The position numbers were made by a program, and so were the translations under genes. Below, piece after piece: positions 5,431 through 40,343 of a DNA stretch of 64,000 nucleotides. The notes beneath the pieces are model-generated. The model was not told the origin of the DNA. It saw only the letters and a program-made list of their open reading frames with translations, and did not search any database. The stretch is from assembly GCF_014202415.1 (NCBI RefSeq), contig NZ_JACHGR010000001.1:372001-436000 (forward strand). Reading direction: 5' to 3'. Position 1 is the first letter of the stretch. Each line of letters begins with the position of its first letter. This DNA comes from Tolumonas osonensis. Lineage in GTDB: Bacteria > Pseudomonadota > Gammaproteobacteria > Enterobacterales > Aeromonadaceae.

Positions 5431-6290
5431 TAATTTGTTGCCTTGCTTAACCAATCGCGGATTGTTTTTGCGTCAGAAAATGGGATTTTGACTCCCTTTT
5501 TTGAACATAGCTTTTCAAGCTCTGTCATTAAGCCGTTAGCATTATTAACGAGCCCTTCCAATTTGGGGTGTATCAAGATCAATGTTTTAATCATGTCTGA
5601 TTGCTTAGCCGTGACTCTAAATTTGTTCTCGGGCAGGGTTTTTAATTCTTGTTCTCTATTTTTCTGAGCTAGTTCCGTATTGTTATAAATATTATCCAAC
5701 ACTCCGCCACCGTGAATGGCTTTGTATAATCGTTCAAGATCTGGACGAATTATGTAAATATCATTCAATTTCGGATCACTAACGCGGGTGTCATTTGGTG
5801 TATGAATGATTCCTCGGTATGTCCAACCATTTTCATCTGGTAGTGGGGAAAATATTTTAATCTCATTATCTATCCCACCTAATGAACCAAGTTCAGCAAG
5901 CACATCAGAGATATCCAGAATATAAAATGGGTCTATTGCCCAAAATCCTTCAAAATATACAGGAACGTCACAAACATCTTGAGCAGTCATTTTCACCAGA
6001 TCATCATGAAAGTACTCACTACTGAATGACTGGTCAAAGCTGGAATATAAAGAAATACGAGTTAAATCATAAGAATCCTCATATATCGCACGAATAAAAT
6101 CAGCAATTTCTTCGGTGCTTTTGGCTTTATCTACTTTTTCTATATCCAGTAAAAGACCTGACCCAGCGCCATTTAGACACAACTTTATAGCACCAATACT
6201 TCCCCAATGAAGTAGGTCTTGAACCTCACAATCCAATAATCTTGAAGCTCTTTCTAACGTGCAATATTCAAGCGGTAATAAGTTTTTCAT
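5430..6290 (-). CDS. Unknown 286-residue accessory protein, stop codon rebuilt by the transposon
   Basis: Begins MKNLLPLEYCTLERASRLL, which resembles a short helix-turn-helix-like N-terminus seen in several accessory proteins (CTLERASRLLDCEVQDLLHWG). The middle is acidic and the last 60 residues are charged and helical (KQSDMIKTLILIHPKLEGLV). No catalytic motif stands out. The TAG stop uses the terminal G of the transposon repeat. Reading across the ancestral junction (one TAATTT copy, then 232 downwards on the minus strand) also gives AAT TAG, so the protein length did not change. Lower G+C than the core genome. It lies 93 bp downstream of the integrase gene, in the same direction. Function unknown. 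Confidence 0.65.
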   Translation of the reverse strand: MKNLLPLEYCTLERASRLLDCEVQDLLHWGSIGAIKLCLNGAGSGLLLDIEKVDKAKSTEEIADFIRAIYEDSYDLTRISLYSSFDQSFSSEYFHDDLVKMTAQDVCDVPVYFEGFWAIDPFYILDISDVLAELGSLGGIDNEIKIFSPLPDENGWTYRGIIHTPNDTRVSDPKLNDIYIIRPDLERLYKAIHGGGVLDNIYNNTELAQKNREQELKTLPENKFRVTAKQSDMIKTLILIHPKLEGLVNNANGLMTELEKLCSKKGVKIPFSDAKTIRDWLSKATN

Positions 6291-6383
6291 GCTGCGCCCC
6301 TTGCGCTACCTGATTTGTTACTGGGTCAGGCTGGCAGGGTATCCAGCTTTTCGATTGGCCGATCTAGGCCCAGTAAATACTGG

Positions 6384-31621: not shown

Positions 31622-31828
31622 AAGAATGCCTTCCTTAATTCAGAACAAGAAGAGTTGTGCACGGATGACATGCCTCTGAATAACAAGAGAAAACGATACA
31701 CCCTCTCCCTGAATCAATGGACCGGGAACGCCAAATCGCAACCCCGGATAAAAAAGATACCAGTAAAAAGTGTAGTTCATATGGCGTGACAGAAGGCGAA
31801 AGCGGTTAACTACGGCTCCTGCCCATAA

Positions 31829-31862
31829 ACAAAAAGCCCAACGGTCAAACCGTCAGGCTTTT
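31829..31862 (-). terminator. Displaced original terminator of rnpB
   Basis: On the minus strand this reads as a hairpin AAGCC-TGACGGT-loop-ACCGTTGGGCTTTTTG, closely matching the hairpin that now follows rnpB at 39917-39949. It is stranded 8 kb from rnpB by the island. Confidence 0.75.
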
Positions 31863-31873
31863 GATTTTCTTGA

Positions 31874-31897
31874 ATTAGTGGGGTTGGCCTGTAAGCC
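31874..31897 (-). repeat. Left attachment repeat: copy of the rnpB 3' end
   Basis: These 24 bases are identical to 39961-39984, which is the 3' end of rnpB including the strand that closes its P1 helix. Homology continues outwards through the terminator but stops at once on the inner side (CGCAAG here, GGGTTC in rnpB). This marks the left end of an island integrated into rnpB. Confidence 0.92.
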
Positions 31898-32443
31898 CGC
31901 AAGCCAACTCCAGTTTAAGAAATGACTTAACGGAAGTTGTTGAAAAATAGAGAGTGATTAAAAATCATACTCTGGCTTGTTCCCCAAAGTGTTGCACAGT
32001 TTGTATCACAGTTCCAATCTCGGCCCCAGAAATTCACAGCCACGCCCCACAACCTTTAACCATCGTCCAACAGCAAGATCTCAAAGCGAAGCCTCAGCGG
32101 TGCTGAGTGAGCGAGCTAGTGCATACCAAATAGAATCATAAAAAAAATTAAAACCCCAAACGGATCCGCATCACTCTATCTGGCTGCTGGTGAGATAGCA
32201 GACTCAATCAATAACGAAGCTGATATAACTGACTAAAAACTGACTTCGGTCAAAAGCCTAGATTGAATCCAATACAGAATGAGACTAGGATAAAATTTGT
32301 CTGTCTTATCTGACAGAAATAGGCCTAGATCGCACTTATGTGATCCTGCGGTAGCTTTGTCTGACAAAAAATGAAATATGGAAAAAATCCGTATAAGCGC
32401 ACTGGATTCGTATAAATTACGGAATTATTCTTGATAATAAATT
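31898..32443. other. Gene-free left end of the island
   Basis: No convincing gene was seen. It includes a 28-bp segment at 31977-32004 matching 26 of 28 bases of the integrase 5' end at 39879-39906, and a small dyad TCTGTC-N6-GACAGA near 32300. A promoter for the first cassette and an attI-like site could lie just before GTTAGGC at 32444. Confidence 0.5.
31977..32004 (-). repeat. Left copy of the 28-bp direct repeat
   Basis: Matches the integrase 5' coding DNA. On the minus strand the in-frame reading is KLCNTLGNKPEYDF followed by TAA, against KLCNKLGNK in the integrase. It lies 79 bp inside the left attachment repeat. Confidence 0.65.
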
Positions 32444-32450
32444 GTTAGGC
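32444..32450 (+). other. Cassette junction core site GTTAGGC opening the array
   Basis: GTTAGGC fits the integron core GTTRRRY and is the exact complement of the R'' box GCCTAAC of the first attC (33217-33223). That complementarity is expected because one cassette circle supplies both. The sequence to its left does not look like an attC, so this could be an attI-like site or a truncated one. Confidence 0.65.
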
Positions 32451-32474
32451 TTTCATTTCAAGTAAGGTGAATCA

Positions 32475-33197
32475 TTGAAAAAACAAAACTTTAACATAGC
32501 TGTTTATATAGACATGGAAAACGTGTCATCCTCAGATTTCATTCTCGAAGATTTAATGAATGCCTTGTTAAGTACCGATGATGGTTTAAATTGCATATTT
32601 GCAATTAAATCTGCATACGGAAATCAATCTATATCTAAAAAAACACTGAAAGAACAAATTATAAACCATAATTTCACCATATTAGACACACCTAAAATTG
32701 GTACAGAGAAAAATCGTGCTGATTTATTTATTAGCATGGATGCTTTCGAAACCTTATATCTTGGAAATCCACAAATAGATCGATATTGCTTTCTTACAAG
32801 TGATTCTGATTTCACAGTCATTGGCGATCGACTAAGGAAATTTGGTAAAGAAGTTTGGCTTGTATGCAAACGTAAAGATAAAGATCGAGCCATCCTAGCT
32901 AAATCATTCGATAATTTACTTTTCCTAGAAGACTTTTCACATAAAAACTCTATTAAAATCGACAATGAAATTGAGCGTCTTTTTGTTGCTGCCATAAAAA
33001 ATATAAATAGAGACAAACTGCCTAATAATGTATCAATTGCAAACTCAGGGATGAAGGTTTTAGATCCTAGCTTTGATATATCAAAAACTGAATATAAAGT
33101 ATTCATGAACTTAATACGAGAGATGGGCACTAAAGGTTATATAAAATACGAAATATTGCCTTCTGGTTTAAACAGACTAACTGAAATATTGATATGA
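32475..33197 (+). CDS. NYN/PIN-like nuclease with C-terminal LOTUS-like domain (cassette 1)
   Basis: 240 residues. The start is TTG at 32475, preceded by AAGGTG; starting at the next in-frame ATG would delete the first catalytic acidic motif. The N-terminal NYN domain shows AVYIDMENV, then KNRADLFISMDAFE and FLTSDSDFTVIGDRLRK, the acidic residues that bind metal in this PIN-like RNase fold. The last 70 residues (RLFVAAIKNINRD to YIKYEILPSG) resemble a winged OST-HTH/LOTUS domain often fused to NYN. Probable ribonuclease. A role in defence or RNA turnover is inference. A+T rich, in its own integron cassette. Confidence 0.82.
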   Translation: MKKQNFNIAVYIDMENVSSSDFILEDLMNALLSTDDGLNCIFAIKSAYGNQSISKKTLKEQIINHNFTILDTPKIGTEKNRADLFISMDAFETLYLGNPQIDRYCFLTSDSDFTVIGDRLRKFGKEVWLVCKRKDKDRAILAKSFDNLLFLEDFSHKNSIKIDNEIERLFVAAIKNINRDKLPNNVSIANSGMKVLDPSFDISKTEYKVFMNLIREMGTKGYIKYEILPSGLNRLTEILI

Positions 33198-33216
33198 CGT
33201 TAAAAATCAACTGAAA

Positions 33217-33274
33217 GCCTAACAAAAAATTAGTGTCGGATGGCTTTCAGCCACCGCACAATTCGAAGTTAAAT
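33217..33274 (+). other. attC site of cassette 1
   Basis: R'' GCCTAAC (33217-33223) and R' GTTAAAT (33268-33274) border an imperfect hairpin: TGTCGGATGGCT pairs with AGCCACCGCACA around a TTC loop, with an extra unpaired base on one arm, as attC sites have. It follows the NYN stop by 20 bp. R'' is complementary to the GTTAGGC that opens the same cassette. Confidence 0.85.
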
Positions 33275-33298
33275 TACTTTTCAGCCTCAAGGAATGTC

Positions 33299-34105
33299 AT
33301 GTTTTTAAATGAATTATTGAGCATCTATGGTCTTGAGCCAAGTGATATTAAGTTACACATGGCTATGGGCGAAAAGGTGAAAATTGAGCCTCTACTTGCA
33401 TTTACTAATGGTGATTTTAAAACATGGCAAGAAGGTCAACGTAACGCATACTTTGGAAGAAAATACATTCTAAGCCTCATATATCTCAGGAATAATGAAT
33501 GGCTATTCGGTGGTGTCTATTCCGTTAATGGTTGTAATCAAGTAAGTGAAAAAAAATTCAAATATGATACGACCCTGCAGGCTTATGGTTCAGATTTAAT
33601 CGGCCGAGTTGTTTTATACTATGAGAAAAATTTTAGAAATAACTATCTGATTGCAGAAAACCACATTTCTAACATGCAATTAATTGAAATTCTTAGAGAT
33701 AAATTCATATGCGATCCATTCCCCGGTTACGCCAACGCAACAATATCTTATGAACAATTAAAACAAATTACAATCACTGAAGAAAATAGCTGGAAAACAG
33801 CATTATCAATAGTAAATGGCATATACGTCATTACTGATATTTCGACAGGAAAGCTATATATAGGCAAAGCTGATGGTGAAGAAGGCTTATGGCAACGTTG
33901 GTGCTATTATGCTTCAACTGGGCATGGTAGTAACATTGATCTTATAGAACTACTCAAAAATAAAAGCGAAGATTATAAATTAAACTTCCAATACACAATT
34001 CTTGAGGTTATTCCTAAAGCATCCAATCAAGAATTTATTAATGAGCGCGAAACGTATTGGAAAGATGTGTTCTGCACCAGAAAGCATGGCCACAACAAAA
34101 ATTAA
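33299..34105 (+). CDS. GIY-YIG nuclease-domain protein (cassette 2)
   Basis: 268 residues from ATG 33299, which has AAGGA at good spacing and lies 30 bp inside its cassette, just as the first gene does. The N-terminal 165 residues are of unknown fold. The C-terminal domain has NGIYVITDISTGKLYIGKAD, with the GIY and YIG motifs, then WQRWCYYASTGHGSN with the arginine of the family, and a later glutamate in ERETYWKD. The usual catalytic tyrosine, arginine and glutamate all appear present. Probably a DNA endonuclease. An A+T-rich cassette gene; a restriction-like or defence role is inference. Confidence 0.85.
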   Translation: MFLNELLSIYGLEPSDIKLHMAMGEKVKIEPLLAFTNGDFKTWQEGQRNAYFGRKYILSLIYLRNNEWLFGGVYSVNGCNQVSEKKFKYDTTLQAYGSDLIGRVVLYYEKNFRNNYLIAENHISNMQLIEILRDKFICDPFPGYANATISYEQLKQITITEENSWKTALSIVNGIYVITDISTGKLYIGKADGEEGLWQRWCYYASTGHGSNIDLIELLKNKSEDYKLNFQYTILEVIPKASNQEFINERETYWKDVFCTRKHGHNKN

Positions 34106-34160
34106 TTTAACAAAAACTTGGTGTTGGATTGCTTCGCAACCCCACAAGTAAAAGTTATGC
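34105..34160 (+). other. attC site of cassette 2
   Basis: R'' ATTTAAC (34105-34111) is the exact complement of the GTTAAAT opening this cassette, and R' is GTTATGC (34154-34160). Between them ACTTGGTGTTGGATTGC pairs with GCAACCCCACAAGT around a TTC loop with unpaired bases. R'' overlaps the last base of the stop codon. Confidence 0.87.
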
Positions 34161-34215
34161 ATTTATATCGTTCTCCACTATTAACCCTGTGTATCATCTA
34201 CTTCAAGGATATAAA

Positions 34216-34758
34216 ATGAAATATGATAAAATCATTGAAAAAATCAATTCAAAGACATTGTCACGAGCAGAATTATCAAAAATAAAACAAAATGCAGAAC
34301 TTAAAAATAGACAAGGTGATACTGATGCAATACATGTTATAAATGCAATACATCAAGCAACCCCAGCTGATGCATATATTCTCTTCATGGGATTCTGCCC
34401 TAGTGCTGACATCCATAACAGATTAGATATTGAATGGCGACAAAAAGGAATTTGTCGATTTGATTTTTTAGAAAGCGAACATCAAGCTGCTAGATTTAAT
34501 ACAATCTGTGCTGGTGATTTGGTTATTCTGAAAAAAAGAGAACAATTTGGTAAAACGATGAAATTGTATGGACATGGCCGTGTTACTGGTGTCGCATATG
34601 ATAAAGATAATATCAGATACCTTACTATGAATTGGTCTGAACAAGATAAAGTAATTGAAGTCCCGTTAATAGGGTGTAATTCAACAGTCGATGTAAAATC
34701 AATCGAATTAGTCGAAAATGAAATGCCAAATGAATTTTATGAGTGGCTAAATACATAA
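34216..34758 (+). CDS. Unknown 180-residue cassette protein (cassette 3)
   Basis: Starts at ATG 34216 with AAGGA upstream. The N-terminal third is lysine-rich and helical (MKYDKIIEKINSKTL). The rest reads RFDFLESEHQAARFNTICAG, then DLVILKKREQFGKTMKLYGH, and GRVTGVAYDKDN, a beta-rich pattern faintly like PUA/EVE-type modified-base readers. That likeness is weak. I do not recognise the family. It is strictly bounded by cassette junctions, so it is an integron cassette gene. Composition is strongly A+T rich. Confidence 0.72.
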   Translation: MKYDKIIEKINSKTLSRAELSKIKQNAELKNRQGDTDAIHVINAIHQATPADAYILFMGFCPSADIHNRLDIEWRQKGICRFDFLESEHQAARFNTICAGDLVILKKREQFGKTMKLYGHGRVTGVAYDKDNIRYLTMNWSEQDKVIEVPLIGCNSTVDVKSIELVENEMPNEFYEWLNT

Positions 34759-34816
34759 CAAAAATTTGGTGTTGGATGTGGACTTCACCCACTTTTTCGG
34801 ACACGCAAAGTTATAA
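34753..34816 (+). other. attC site of cassette 3
   Basis: R'' ACATAAC (34753-34759) complements the opening GTTATGC with one end mismatch. R' is GTTATAA (34810-34816). The inner left arm TTTGGTGTTGGATGTGG is nearly the same as in the second attC. The right arm is CGGACACGCAAA. The hairpin is less regular than in the other two. Confidence 0.78.
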
Positions 34817-34859
34817 CTATGAGCAAATATCAGCATTTACCCATAGTCAAAAATATAAA

Positions 34860-35162
34860 TCAGAAATTCATGCCTATATGACGACCGTCAGGTAATTGGA
34901 CATCAACTGTCAACTTCCCGCCCATCGCTTCAACATAGCGTTTCAGTGAAGACAGTTTAATTTCCTGACCTCGTTTTTCCAGATTCGCTACAGAGGGTTG
35001 TGAAATACCTAAACGGTGTGCCATTTCGACTTGTGATAATTCCAACTGCTCACGAAGCATCGACAACCTGAGCTCCAGTATTTCCTGCTCTGCTTGTTCT
35101 TTTGCCGCCTGAACAACGTCAGGGTTTACTTTTTTAAGTAACTCATTCAGTGGTTTAGCCAT
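34860..35162 (-). CDS. HigA-type antitoxin (XRE family)
   Basis: 100 residues. The helix-turn-helix reads LSQVEMAHRLGISQPSVANL around residues 42-62, within an XRE domain, followed by KLSSLKRYVEAMGGKL, a feature of HigA-type antitoxins. It is preceded by the toxin gene with a 3-bp gap, the toxin-first order typical of higBA. It should neutralise the toxin and repress the operon through the dyad at 35535-35568. It lies within what would be cassette 4 (opening GTTATAA at 34810), but in reverse orientation and with no attC at the far side. Confidence 0.87.
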   Translation of the reverse strand: MAKPLNELLKKVNPDVVQAAKEQAEQEILELRLSMLREQLELSQVEMAHRLGISQPSVANLEKRGQEIKLSSLKRYVEAMGGKLTVDVQLPDGRHIGMNF

Positions 35163-35165
35163 AGC

Positions 35166-35510
35166 TCACCTCAGTGTGTCCAGATGGTCTAAAAACTCCT
35201 GTTCAGCTATCGGGAGCATCGTTTCATAAAAACGCTTATTCCCTGTTTTATCGCCACCACACAACATGACAGCTTGTCTGAGTGGGTCAAATGCAAAGAA
35301 AATCCGATAGGGTTTTCCGCTATGCTGAACACGAAGTTCTTTGAGGTTTTTAACTTTTTTGGTGCCAGCTAAGGTGTCTACATCTGGACGCCCTAACATG
35401 GGACCAAGCTCTTGAAGTTTGAATACGCCGGTTAAAATACTTTTCTGCTCACTTTCATCAAGATTCAGAAACCATTCATCAAACCGCTCTACGGTGACAA
35501 CAGTCCACAT
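35166..35510 (-). CDS. HigB-type toxin (RelE/ParE superfamily, Gp49-like)
   Basis: 114 residues. The pattern FDEWFLNLDESEQKSILTGV, then GRPDVDTLAGTKKVKNLKEL, RVQHSGKPYRIFFAFDP and AVMLCGGDKTGNKRFYE matches the HigB/Gp49-like (DUF891) group. Members are usually ribosome-dependent mRNA interferases that stop translation. The conserved R-x-x-Y-R-I-F and K-x-x-x-K/RFY segments are present, so activity is plausible. First gene of the toxin-antitoxin operon, which may stabilise the cassette array or the island. Confidence 0.88.
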   Translation of the reverse strand: MWTVVTVERFDEWFLNLDESEQKSILTGVFKLQELGPMLGRPDVDTLAGTKKVKNLKELRVQHSGKPYRIFFAFDPLRQAVMLCGGDKTGNKRFYETMLPIAEQEFLDHLDTLR

Positions 35511-35534
35511 ACAAGCTCCTATGTATGCATAAAT

Positions 35535-35568
35535 TATAGCTCATAACCTATATAGCGCAAGAGCTATA
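35535..35568. promoter_or_regulatory. Inverted repeat operator of the toxin-antitoxin operon
   Basis: TATAGCTC (35535-35542) and GAGCTATA (35561-35568) form an inverted repeat 25 bp upstream of the toxin start. A further GAGCTAT lies at 35591. This placement suits repression by the antitoxin. The remaining part of 35511-35800 shows no gene. Confidence 0.6.
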
Positions 35569-35799
35569 TGCTGATAACAAATATCCAGATCAGGAGCTAT
35601 TCGCATAAGCACAGCATCAGATCACGTACCCTATCTTCTATTTATTTCAAAATATTTCATATGAGACCCACAAAAGGTAACACCTATCCGAGAAAGCTAT
35701 CAAAACACCATAATTTGTAGAATTTAAATTTCTCACCACAAAAAGGCAGAACTTGTCTGATTTTTAATGTCTTTTTTCTTTGCGGTAACTGTATAGGCT

Positions 35800-35940: not shown

Positions 35941-36510
35941 ATGAGTAGAATTTTTGCGTATTGCCGTGTTAGCACCACAGAGCAAACGACTGAGAATCAA
36001 ATTCAAGCCATTAAAAGACATGGTTATGACGTTCGAGATGACCGTATAGTGTCTGAAACTATATCTGGCAGTGTTCAGGCAATGCAGAGAGCTGAGTTTG
36101 CTAATTTGGTCACTCACAAAATGGAGTTAGGCGATACGCTAGTGGTCTTAAAGCTGGATAGACTCGGAAGAGATAACATTGACATTCAGCAAACGATTCA
36201 AATGCTAACAACGAAAGGGATTAAAGTTGTTTGCTTAGATCTGCCTGTGCCTGACCTTAGCAGTTCAGAAGGCAAGTTAATGCTCCAAATGTTCTCAGCT
36301 TTTGCAGAATTTGAGAGAAATAGGATTAAAGAACGAACCAGAGATGGTCTGGAACGCGCTAAGACAGAAGGAAAGACATTAGGTAGACCAGAAGCCATCG
36401 AGACCACGGAAAAGGTTCTGGAAGCGAAAGCAGAAGGGTTATCTCAGAGTGCTGTAGCTAAAAAGCTGAGTATCAGCATTGCTACTGTTAAGCGTCATTG
36501 GAATAAGTAA
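35941..36510 (+). CDS. Serine recombinase (resolvase/invertase family)
   Basis: 189 residues, full length for small resolvases. The N-terminal catalytic domain starts RIFAYCRVSTTEQTTENQI with the nucleophile serine at residue 10, and continues VVLKLDRLGRDNIDIQQTI and FAEFERNRIKERTRDGLERA with the conserved arginines. The C-terminal helix-turn-helix is LSQSAVAKKLSISIATVKRH. The repeated GTATCA words upstream are its likely recombination or control sites. It may resolve island multimers or invert a segment; no second inverted site was found. Confidence 0.92.
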   Translation: MSRIFAYCRVSTTEQTTENQIQAIKRHGYDVRDDRIVSETISGSVQAMQRAEFANLVTHKMELGDTLVVLKLDRLGRDNIDIQQTIQMLTTKGIKVVCLDLPVPDLSSSEGKLMLQMFSAFAEFERNRIKERTRDGLERAKTEGKTLGRPEAIETTEKVLEAKAEGLSQSAVAKKLSISIATVKRHWNK

Positions 36511-36800: not shown

Positions 36801-37388
36801 TTAAGCTGCTTGTCTGTAATTCTCTTTATCAGTAATGGATTTTAACTGCGTCATATTGAACATTCTTTCAGAGCTATCAGTTTTTTGAGACGTTTTGCAT
36901 AAATAACTTAAACCATATATTACATCATCAAATTTTTTGACATCCGCCCGTCTGAGCAATCCAACGGAGTTTCTTTCGCCTTTTGCTGCATCATATCGCC
37001 CTACCGAACCGAATAGACCAGTCTTCAATGTCCACCAGCACAACAGATGTTTCATGTGTTTATAGTCTGATTTGTATTTATGTCCATTCAGGAAAATAAC
37101 AACATGATAGTGTTTACCTTGTTTGCCATGCTCATTGGAGTTCTCACAACTCCAGGCATAACCGAAGAAGTCAGAGCCATATTTGTCTTTTGCTTTAGCA
37201 ATTAAGAATTGTATGTCTTTATGGTCTGGTAAGCTGTGAGCTAATAAGTCTAATCGACAAACCAGTATCTTCTCATGCCTATCAATTAGTGTTTCAAGCA
37301 AGTTAATTAGTTTTGTAAATTGACGTGAGTTTGGAGCGGCTTGATATGTTGGTGTACTCGGATAGTTTTTTGTTTGTTTTCTTTTCAT
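36801..37388 (-). CDS. Inovirus Gp2/YagK-like protein, possible HUH replication protein
   Basis: 195 residues. The central GKHYHVVIFLNGHKYKSDYK holds an H-x-H pair resembling the HUH metal site of rolling-circle replication proteins. YGLSYLCKTSQKT further on matches the end of the YagK/YfjJ family. Such proteins are common in inovirus-related elements and P4-like or phage-satellite islands. The gene is A+T rich. Immediately upstream (37389-38110) is a dyad-rich gap that could be the cognate origin. Replication of the excised island is inference. Confidence 0.7.
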   Translation of the reverse strand: MKRKQTKNYPSTPTYQAAPNSRQFTKLINLLETLIDRHEKILVCRLDLLAHSLPDHKDIQFLIAKAKDKYGSDFFGYAWSCENSNEHGKQGKHYHVVIFLNGHKYKSDYKHMKHLLCWWTLKTGLFGSVGRYDAAKGERNSVGLLRRADVKKFDDVIYGLSYLCKTSQKTDSSERMFNMTQLKSITDKENYRQAA

Positions 37389-38110: not shown

Positions 38111-39913
38111 TTACCAAGGCAAACAGTCAACAACACAAGTTAAGTCCTGAACTGGGAAAACATGTGTGTATCGGTCAGTAATTGTTTTATTAGTTTGATG
38201 TCCTACAACCTTCTGCAATACAGGGTCTGTAATGCCTTTAGAACGAGCTTTTGTTATTAGTGAATGCCTTAGGCTATGAAAGACGCGGCGTTGCTCATAT
38301 TCATTTTCATGCGGTATAGCAAGGGTTTCTCTTGCTTTTCTCAGTTCATCGTTTATTAACTCAGGCTTCTTAGAATAAAGTTTCTGGTTAGGTCTTAACT
38401 GATTCAAATATTCGATTAAACCTGTAGCTTCTAATTTTTTACTAATCGGAATGACACGACGGGCAGCATCTGTTTTGCCTTTCTCAATAAAAATATAGTT
38501 ATAGCCTGATTCTGTGTCATGCTTGACCGATTCTGATGTTAAATTACATATTTCACTCAGACGCATTCCAGTATAACAAGCCGTTAATATAACCAACTGT
38601 TTGTCTGAAATTTCTTGTTGTTCATAGTAACTAACAATCGAATTCATTTGTAAATCTGTATAATTTGCATACGGAATTGATTGATATTTAAAGGTAACGT
38701 TTTCAGTAGGCGATTTCGTTAATATATCTTTTGATTTAAATAAGTAAGCAGAGAAGAAAGACTGATAAGATTTCAGCGTTTCTCTGACCGACTTAGAAGA
38801 TACACGATGCTCCTCTGGAATTTCGATTAAATCGTTTTTGATCGCGTAAACAACAGCCTTCAATCCCTGCTCTTTATAAGGTTTTAAACTCATTTTTGGC
38901 ATTTCGGATTTTATTTGCAAAGACTCTTTTATATCTTGTTTGGTCACTCGATTAACAGGTTTATCACCTATCGAAAAAATCAAAAACTCAAGATCTCTTT
39001 TGTATCCATTGATAATATCTTCTGATCTGCTTCGTTCATCCCACGATAAAAAATCAGGAATATAATGAGAAATAACTGGCAAATCTTGTTCTTTTTTTAT
39101 TGGTTGTGATTGCTGAATAACTTGCTGGTTTGTAAGCTTTTCTTTCAAATCTGCTATAGTTGTTTCAGTTAAAACACGCTGATATTTAGAGTTTAAATCT
39201 GCAGAAATAGCATTCAACCTATTGGTATCATCAGAAATCATTGCCTCACCCAATTCCATCGGCATCTTCCAATGAGTATTAAAATACATTTTTAAAGTTT
39301 CTCTTAAAAAATCTTCACCATATTCATCATAAATAGGTTTGAATCTAGCATAGAAACATGATTCTAATTTGTCACTATTATTTTTTATATCCTCAACCAA
39401 ATCACTCACCACCATCTTAAAAGCTATACTTCTCTCAATTAGTGAAGAAGATAAATATTCATTCAGATCCGAGCAATAATTATCGGACAATTCTGATGAG
39501 GAGTTTTCATAATTTTCTATTTTATCTAAGTAATCATCCTCATAGCTTTCAAGGTTATTGATAGCAATTTCTAAAAAACCACGTTTAATTTGTAGCAATG
39601 ACTTATCTGAATCATCCATTTGAATACCTTTAATCCTATTTGTCATACCAGTATCAAAGGGAGCCAATATAGCAGTTAATTTATCTGTATTGCGATTTTG
39701 GGAGGCTTCTTTTGCAGATGTTATGACATCAATCAATTTAGATTGGCGTTGTTTAGCTATGAGAACATCTCTTGTTCTCAGGCTGTAACGAAGGACTCTG
39801 GGTTTATCGACTAACGAGCTGGGGACACGATAGCAAAAGTAGAAAATACCGTTGCGATTGGTCAGGTATGACGGGGTTTTGTTCCCCAATTTGTTGCACA
39901 GTTTGTTGCTCAT
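38111..39913 (-). CDS. Tyrosine integrase of the rnpB island
   Basis: 600 residues from ATG 39913. The N-terminus YLTNRNGIFYFCYRVPSSLV and RYSLRTRDVLIAKQR is the DUF6538-type domain of large phage-like integrases. The middle 250 residues are acidic and helical. The catalytic domain has TACYTGMRLSEICNL (first arginine), HSLRHSLITKARSKG, VVGHQTNKTITDRYTHVF with trailing histidine and tyrosine. The start overlaps the segment next to the rnpB terminator, so its promoter must lie inside the terminator/att region and be split or formed by integration. It is far larger than IntI (about 320-340 residues) and is not an integron integrase. Confidence 0.92.
   Translation of the reverse strand: MSNKLCNKLGNKTPSYLTNRNGIFYFCYRVPSSLVDKPRVLRYSLRTRDVLIAKQRQSKLIDVITSAKEASQNRNTDKLTAILAPFDTGMTNRIKGIQMDDSDKSLLQIKRGFLEIAINNLESYEDDYLDKIENYENSSSELSDNYCSDLNEYLSSSLIERSIAFKMVVSDLVEDIKNNSDKLESCFYARFKPIYDEYGEDFLRETLKMYFNTHWKMPMELGEAMISDDTNRLNAISADLNSKYQRVLTETTIADLKEKLTNQQVIQQSQPIKKEQDLPVISHYIPDFLSWDERSRSEDIINGYKRDLEFLIFSIGDKPVNRVTKQDIKESLQIKSEMPKMSLKPYKEQGLKAVVYAIKNDLIEIPEEHRVSSKSVRETLKSYQSFFSAYLFKSKDILTKSPTENVTFKYQSIPYANYTDLQMNSIVSYYEQQEISDKQLVILTACYTGMRLSEICNLTSESVKHDTESGYNYIFIEKGKTDAARRVIPISKKLEATGLIEYLNQLRPNQKLYSKKPELINDELRKARETLAIPHENEYEQRRVFHSLRHSLITKARSKGITDPVLQKVVGHQTNKTITDRYTHVFPVQDLTCVVDCLPW
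39879..39906 (-). repeat. Right copy of a 28-bp direct repeat (26/28 match to 31977-32004)
   Basis: The 28 bases covering integrase codons 3-11 recur near the left end of the island with two mismatches, in the same orientation. They may be an integrase-binding arm site or the relic of a related integrase gene. Confidence 0.65.
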
Positions 39914-39916
39914 AAA

Positions 39917-39949
39917 CAAAAGGCCTAACGGTTAAACCGCTAAGCCTTT
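39917..39949 (-). terminator. Terminator following rnpB, supplied by the island
   Basis: On the minus strand AAGGC-TTAGCGGT-TTA-ACCGTTA-GGCCTTTTG forms a hairpin with a short T-run. It lies between the rnpB end and the integrase ATG and resembles the displaced copy at 31829-31862. Confidence 0.75.
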
Positions 39950-39962
39950 GATTTTCTTAGAT

Positions 39963-40343
<381 letters not shown>

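Follow-up and report, generated by a model that had tools for sequence, protein, structure and literature searches.

A Tolumonas osonensis island integrated at rnpB very probably carries an integrase-less integron

The window analysed here is a 64-kb stretch of the Tolumonas osonensis draft genome (contig C1:372001-436000; assembly G000, 3.29 Mb in 30 contigs, 99.9% complete), and positions given without a contig or locus name are those of the window. It contains an 8.1-kb island lying against the intact target gene rnpB (39963-40343, minus strand; RF00010, 333 bits), with its right end at the 3' end of that gene (39907-39984) and its left end in an incomplete duplicate of the 3' end and terminator of rnpB (31820-31897), an attL/attR-type repeat. 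The two end repeats are 87% identical, lie 8,087 bp apart, and comprise the final 22 nt of rnpB with its terminator region. At the same place the related genomes G009 and G010 are island-free, the nitrilase gene that is the island's left neighbour here being found within ~260 bp of rnpB. An earlier note on this DNA had placed a cassette array inside an rnpB island, and this location was borne out by the rnpB-end repeat together with the island-free rnpB-nitrilase junction of these relatives, the two features by which such an island is recognised. The island runs from its left end through a platform with its putative attI, an NYN cassette with attC1, a UzuA cassette with attC2, a third cassette with attC3, and a reversed toxin-antitoxin (TA) cassette with a cut attC4, and then through a backbone of resolvase, Rep-like protein and tyrosine integrase up to rnpB.

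The backbone consists of a serine resolvase (35941-36510, plus strand; PF00239, E = 5e-36), a replication-like protein with a YagK/YfjJ C-terminal domain (36801-37388, minus strand; PF11726, E = 5.3e-7), and a tyrosine integrase of 602 amino acids (38111-39919, minus strand; PF00589 and PF20172). The reading of this large integrase as something other than an IntI was correct: the protein scores 22.9 bits with TIGR02249, for which the cut-off is 265. The integrase was not found in other genomes of the genus, and a query against the genome-contig collection returned no relatives; in another member of the Aeromonadaceae (G050), a 35%-identical integrase adjoins rnpB. An island bearing the platform was not found in any other genome. 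The rnpB island is presumably mobile. Elsewhere in the window, an int-alpA RNA (RF02996, 48.8 bits) at 6308-6374 points to a second integrated element.

The array extends from ~32444 to 35581 and holds four cassettes. The first encodes, from a TTG start, an NYN-domain protein with a PIN-like nuclease fold (32475-33197, plus strand; PF01936, E = 2.5e-17), and the second a GIY-YIG nuclease of the UzuA family from the candidate anti-phage system Uzume (33299-34105, plus strand; PADLOC UzuA, E = 6.9e-63). The UzuA profile matched over 266 residues, which places the protein in Uzume by profile, with a candidate role in defence. Its homologue at 32% identity is itself a cassette, located in the G005 array between the attC sites L119:6696-6755 and 5807-5866; plasmids often carry relatives at ~35-37% identity (397 records), and none was returned from the genome-contig collection. 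The third cassette encodes a protein (34216-34758, plus strand) that gave no family match in profile searches and no homologue in 40 related genomes or in plasmids. There follow, on the minus strand, an HTH antitoxin (34860-35162; PF01381), 96-98% identical in amino acids to array cassettes of G005 and G009, and a Gp49/RelE-type toxin (35166-35510; PF05973, E = 3.8e-22). As a pair, they share 93-98% amino acid identity with cassettes of the G009 (two copies) and G005 arrays, and the DNA homology to these sister cassettes (85-89%) runs from an R' at ~34807 to an R'' at 35581. Judged by this homology, the HTH/Gp49 pair at 34860-35510 is a fourth cassette, which the earlier note had missed. The homology stops at 35581 and attC4 is gone beyond its R'', so that only TGATAAC and 3 nt are left of it (35572-35581, plus strand) at the right edge of the array.

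The attC sites were scored with two covariance models. The first, R1, described the attC fold from five aligned sites (an R''/R' stem, a spacer, an L''/L' stem with bulged bases and a terminal stem), with candidates in the same genome located by pattern; one such pattern match, at C1:302772, was dismissed as an attC on reading the sequence. The second, R2, was made from 150 sites collected and aligned with R1, the sites of the window being excluded, and was run over the whole 64-kb window with filters off. It matched all three sites that had been proposed at 33217, 34105 and 34753, all on the plus strand: attC1 (33217-33274; 75.4 bits, E = 7.6e-15) and attC2 (34105-34160; 67.4 bits, E = 5.7e-13) are canonical, and attC3 (34753-34816; 20.9 bits, E = 0.05) keeps R'', L'' and R', the rest of its right half being the end of an insertion sequence (IS). 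The best score elsewhere in the window was 13.4 bits. Thus, the proposal of three attC sites following three genes stood for the first two sites, and has to be amended for a third site that is IS-scarred and for an array of four cassettes instead of three. Among the first five attC sites, eight pairs vary on both sides yet stay paired, and their covariation score was reached by none of 500 shuffles. In single-strand DNA folding, the bottom strand of attC1 folds as an attC and strongly so (z = -3.3); the folding energies of attC2 and attC3 were no better than those of their own shuffles, and attC2 retains the attC shape. The case for attC2 is therefore one of family membership, not of folding energy. 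Altogether, the attC of an integron, with its conserved bottom-strand fold, is found here, the third site being degenerate. That the three co-directional and closely spaced genes form a normal operon, unrelated to integrons, whose hairpins arose by chance is hardly credible and can be regarded as refuted, given the 75 and 67 bits of the attC models and a last pair that is an antisense TA cassette occurring in true arrays.

The complementarity between each R'' box and the core site opening the same cassette is as the earlier note had described it (GTTAGGC with GCCTAAC, GTTAAAT with ATTTAAC, and GTTATGC with ACATAAC with one mismatch): the R'' matches its own cassette start fully in cassettes 1 and 2, and cassettes 3 and 4 each have a single mismatch. 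We evaluated this on 99 attC sites defined by covariance model and 97 cassettes of the closed genome G003, using the three variable bases of R''. These three bases fully match the start of their own cassette in 78 of 97 cases and the start of the cassette that follows in 12 of 97, with a mean match of 2.66 out of 3, compared to 1.56 in shuffled pairs (maximum 1.81 in 2000 shuffles). Complementarity between R'' and the core site of the same cassette is a property of this attC family.

In attC3, the left half is followed by 29 nt, GTGGACTTCACCCACTTTTTCGGACACGC (34778-34806), and then directly by R'. Exactly this 29-nt sequence forms the left end of an IS3-like element (with OrfA and a rve-type OrfB) that sits between two attC halves at other loci, e.g., in T. 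auensis (L098:11822-13090) and on contig C5 of our own genome (L099:250-1520), with further loci at L089 and L101:6400-6470. Thus, attC3 is an attC with an IS scar, and, with its L' side gone, it would probably recombine weakly or not at all. Among ten copies of the left end in the genus, the left half of an attC clearly precedes six, including that of the window, and probably a seventh, but not the other three; in these six or seven of ten, the insertion position within the attC is the same, after the GGA of L''. By its sites of insertion, the IS3-like element is a candidate for an IS that targets attC sites without belonging to the IS1111 group. The IS1111-attC insertion sequences likewise insert into attC sites but are of the DEDD type, whereas the Tolumonas element is IS3-like with OrfA and a rve-type OrfB.

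The array opens on a conserved platform (32204-32447, plus strand; 245 bp by homology), made of an upstream element (GATCGCACTTATGTGATCCTGCGGTAGC at 32328-32355) and an attI-like site, TTACGGAATTATTC-TTGA-TAATAAATTGTTAGG (32417-32449, plus strand), with a putative crossover G|TT at 32444-32446. It is 82% identical over 249 nt to a locus at 1620 kb of the comparison genome, T. auensis TA 4T (G007; PMC3236046), and 81% identical over 224 nt to C2:1121-1344 of the same T. osonensis genome, the homology to both spanning ~245 bp and ending at GTTA. The attI-like stretch directly precedes the first cassette of the large arrays of G003 (L090), G005 (L102) and G009 (L104), and also stands before mini-arrays of T. 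auensis (L096, L097 and L098) and of our own contig C2 (L017 and L115); platform and attI-like site together occur at several loci of both the T. osonensis and T. auensis genomes. An attI at the head of the cassettes is thus recognisable by its conservation at the heads of sister arrays, and position and conservation suggest that 32417-32449 acts as attI.

Since the array opens at an attI-like site within the platform that heads the arrays of the genus, we interpret it as an integrase-less integron and not as a stray attC cluster. More precisely, the island very probably bears an integron devoid of integrase that derives, platform and cassettes alike, from the chromosomal integron system of the genus. 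A stray cluster would have arisen by single insertions of cassettes by IntI at an attG-like site of the island, without any attI. This alternative would account for an array starting exactly at G|TT with no intI nearby, and insertion by IntI at attG is known, having been described by Loot et al. (2024), as cited in PMC12901181. Nevertheless, sister arrays open on conserved counterparts of the 245-bp platform and of the 32 nt leading up to the junction, as would not be expected of a random attG, so that this alternative is improbable and largely refuted.

The upstream element of the platform, GATCG-N-TCCTGCGGTAGC, occurs in 6 of 11 genomes of the genus, and the copies that were inspected stand at array heads or close to them; a search of 50 other Aeromonadaceae genomes yielded none. 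About 80 nt before attI at array heads, TAGGAT, paired TGTCAG/CTGACA and GATCG...TCCTGCGGTAGC are conserved (window 32255-32356, L090:6790-6870, L104:8345-8260 and L115:1213-1310). This element may be a regulatory or structured RNA or a region bound by IntI; covariation within it is weak (two pairs), and an Rfam search of 31900-32480 gave no match to a known RNA in the platform. A scan for a Pc promoter reading into the cassettes gave scores no better than those of shuffles.

The absence of IntI from the island, also put forward earlier, was verified and extended: there is none in the window and none above the TIGR02249 cut-off in the whole G000 assembly, and no intI adjoins the attI of the array as it would in a complete integron. 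Full-length IntI above the cut-off was found in G002, G003, G005, G009 and G010, and broken copies of intI in G007 and G008. What G000 holds is a remnant, a 90-codon frame (C5:314705-314977) corresponding to approximately the first 70 residues of IntI. The locus of this remnant (C5:314679-314977, L016), beside yoaA, has its broken end fused to the upstream element of the platform and continues with a cassette and an attC, i.e., a decayed integron head. A full intI could in principle be absent from the draft assembly, several contigs of which end in integron repeats. As G000 keeps only a truncated intI, movement of single cassettes is probably off, and the cassettes of this genome are probably frozen unless an IntI comes from outside.

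In the closed genome G003 (one contig), intI lies at 3,446,721, the array at 947,442-1,036,196 and the platform at 946,842; intI and array are thus ~2.5 Mb apart in map coordinates and at least 1.4 Mb apart on the circle. In G002, G003, G005 and G009, the 20-kb regions around intI proved free of attC sites, and these four genomes share the flanks of the gene. The closed genome and the shared, attC-free surroundings of intI argue that the separation of intI from the arrays is a property of the genus and not an effect of draft assembly. The arrays of the same four genomes hold from 99 to at least 150 attC sites of a homogeneous family, which recurs in hundreds of copies in sister arrays, always on one strand within each array. 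The source of the cassettes thus has the large arrays and homogeneous attC sites of a sedentary chromosomal integron. Large arrays were located at L085 and L090-L095 in G003, at L086, L101, L102 and L119-L125 in G005, and at L087, L103, L104 and L126-L131 in G009. The attC arrays of G000 and G007 are fragmented and dispersed. Contigs C5 and C7 of G000 start with the same stretch of ~220 bp (L018:1-230 and L099:1-230), followed by degenerate attC sites; the draft assembly breaks within integron repeats. For the genus, it is plausible that an IntI from a separate locus would serve the arrays in trans.

CALINs are defined in IntegronFinder by at least two attC sites and no intI nearby, and average ~6 attC sites, attI being poorly described outside class 1 (PMC9024848). 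The array has at least two attC sites and no neighbouring intI, and its description in the earlier note as a CALIN within an rnpB island fits that definition; the platform and attI-like site at the left edge, the fourth cassette and the IS scar had been missed. An attI-like site with its platform is more than membership of the CALIN class implies. A CALIN within an island would by itself be of a known kind. What is new is a conserved attI platform apart from intI, in a genus with 100 to at least 150 cassettes. With the sedentary chromosomal integrons of the Vibrio and Xanthomonas type, the sister species share homogeneous attC sites, at least 100 cassettes of ~0.8 kb and a single orientation, and TA and candidate defence cassettes likewise occur in Tolumonas; in contrast, Tolumonas has intI at a separate locus, so that an attI platform heads the array alone, and the window has only a four-cassette piece on an island. 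The rnpB-end repeat and the integrase beside rnpB are shared with other rnpB-integrated islands with large tyrosine integrases, from which this island differs by carrying an integron platform. It resembles the mobile integrons of transposons and plasmids as an integron on a mobile element, but has no intI, and its attC sites belong to the family of the host genus. In the open literature, where most subscription journals lie outside coverage and earlier reports are possible, nothing was found on Tolumonas integrons or on integrons in rnpB islands.

The usual view of integrase-less attC clusters is that they are integrons in decay. Should IntI act in trans, the term CALIN can also denote a working array, and islands could exchange cassettes with the chromosome without an integrase of their own. 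We propose that Tolumonas integrons could be split, with attI-cassette platforms that are separate from intI, occur in several copies and can ride islands, one integrase serving all of them in trans; loss of intI would then freeze all platforms at once, as in G000. We give this model an even chance. The intact (G003, G005 and G009), broken (T. auensis) and truncated (G000) cases provide natural states for studying the loss of intI and the fragmentation and freezing of arrays.

In the history that we propose for the integrase-less integron, the order and timing of whose steps we infer, an ancestral IntI would have assembled the array at attI, acting in trans by inserting cassettes at attI and by cutting the folded bottom strand of attC. 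Platform and first cassettes would then have joined the rnpB island. This fragment of a chromosomal array could have got there without IntI, through an IS or through recombination, homologous or illegitimate; this alternative is about the route alone and would leave the identity as an integrase-less integron untouched. The right edge cut inside attC4 with no R', the IS end in attC3, and the broken and dispersed arrays of G000 and G007 speak for such a transfer, but G000 yielded no donor copy with its cassettes in this order; we regard this route as a serious possibility, leaning slightly against it. The island integrase would have put the island into the rnpB 3' end, as the repeat and the island-free relatives support. 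Later, an IS would have scarred attC3, a deletion would have taken the end of attC4, and intI would have decayed in the lineage. The array would now be inherited with the island and would travel with it if the island integrase works, and cassettes 1 and 2 would still be excisable singly if an IntI enters the cell. Beside the platform, a stretch of 59 nt (31985-32043) is 80% identical to L114:1662-1720, at the 1620-kb locus of T. auensis. It contains TTGCACAGTTTGT, which is found at either end of the island (31992 and 39894); this sequence may serve an integrase as an arm site and could point to an earlier association of platform and island.
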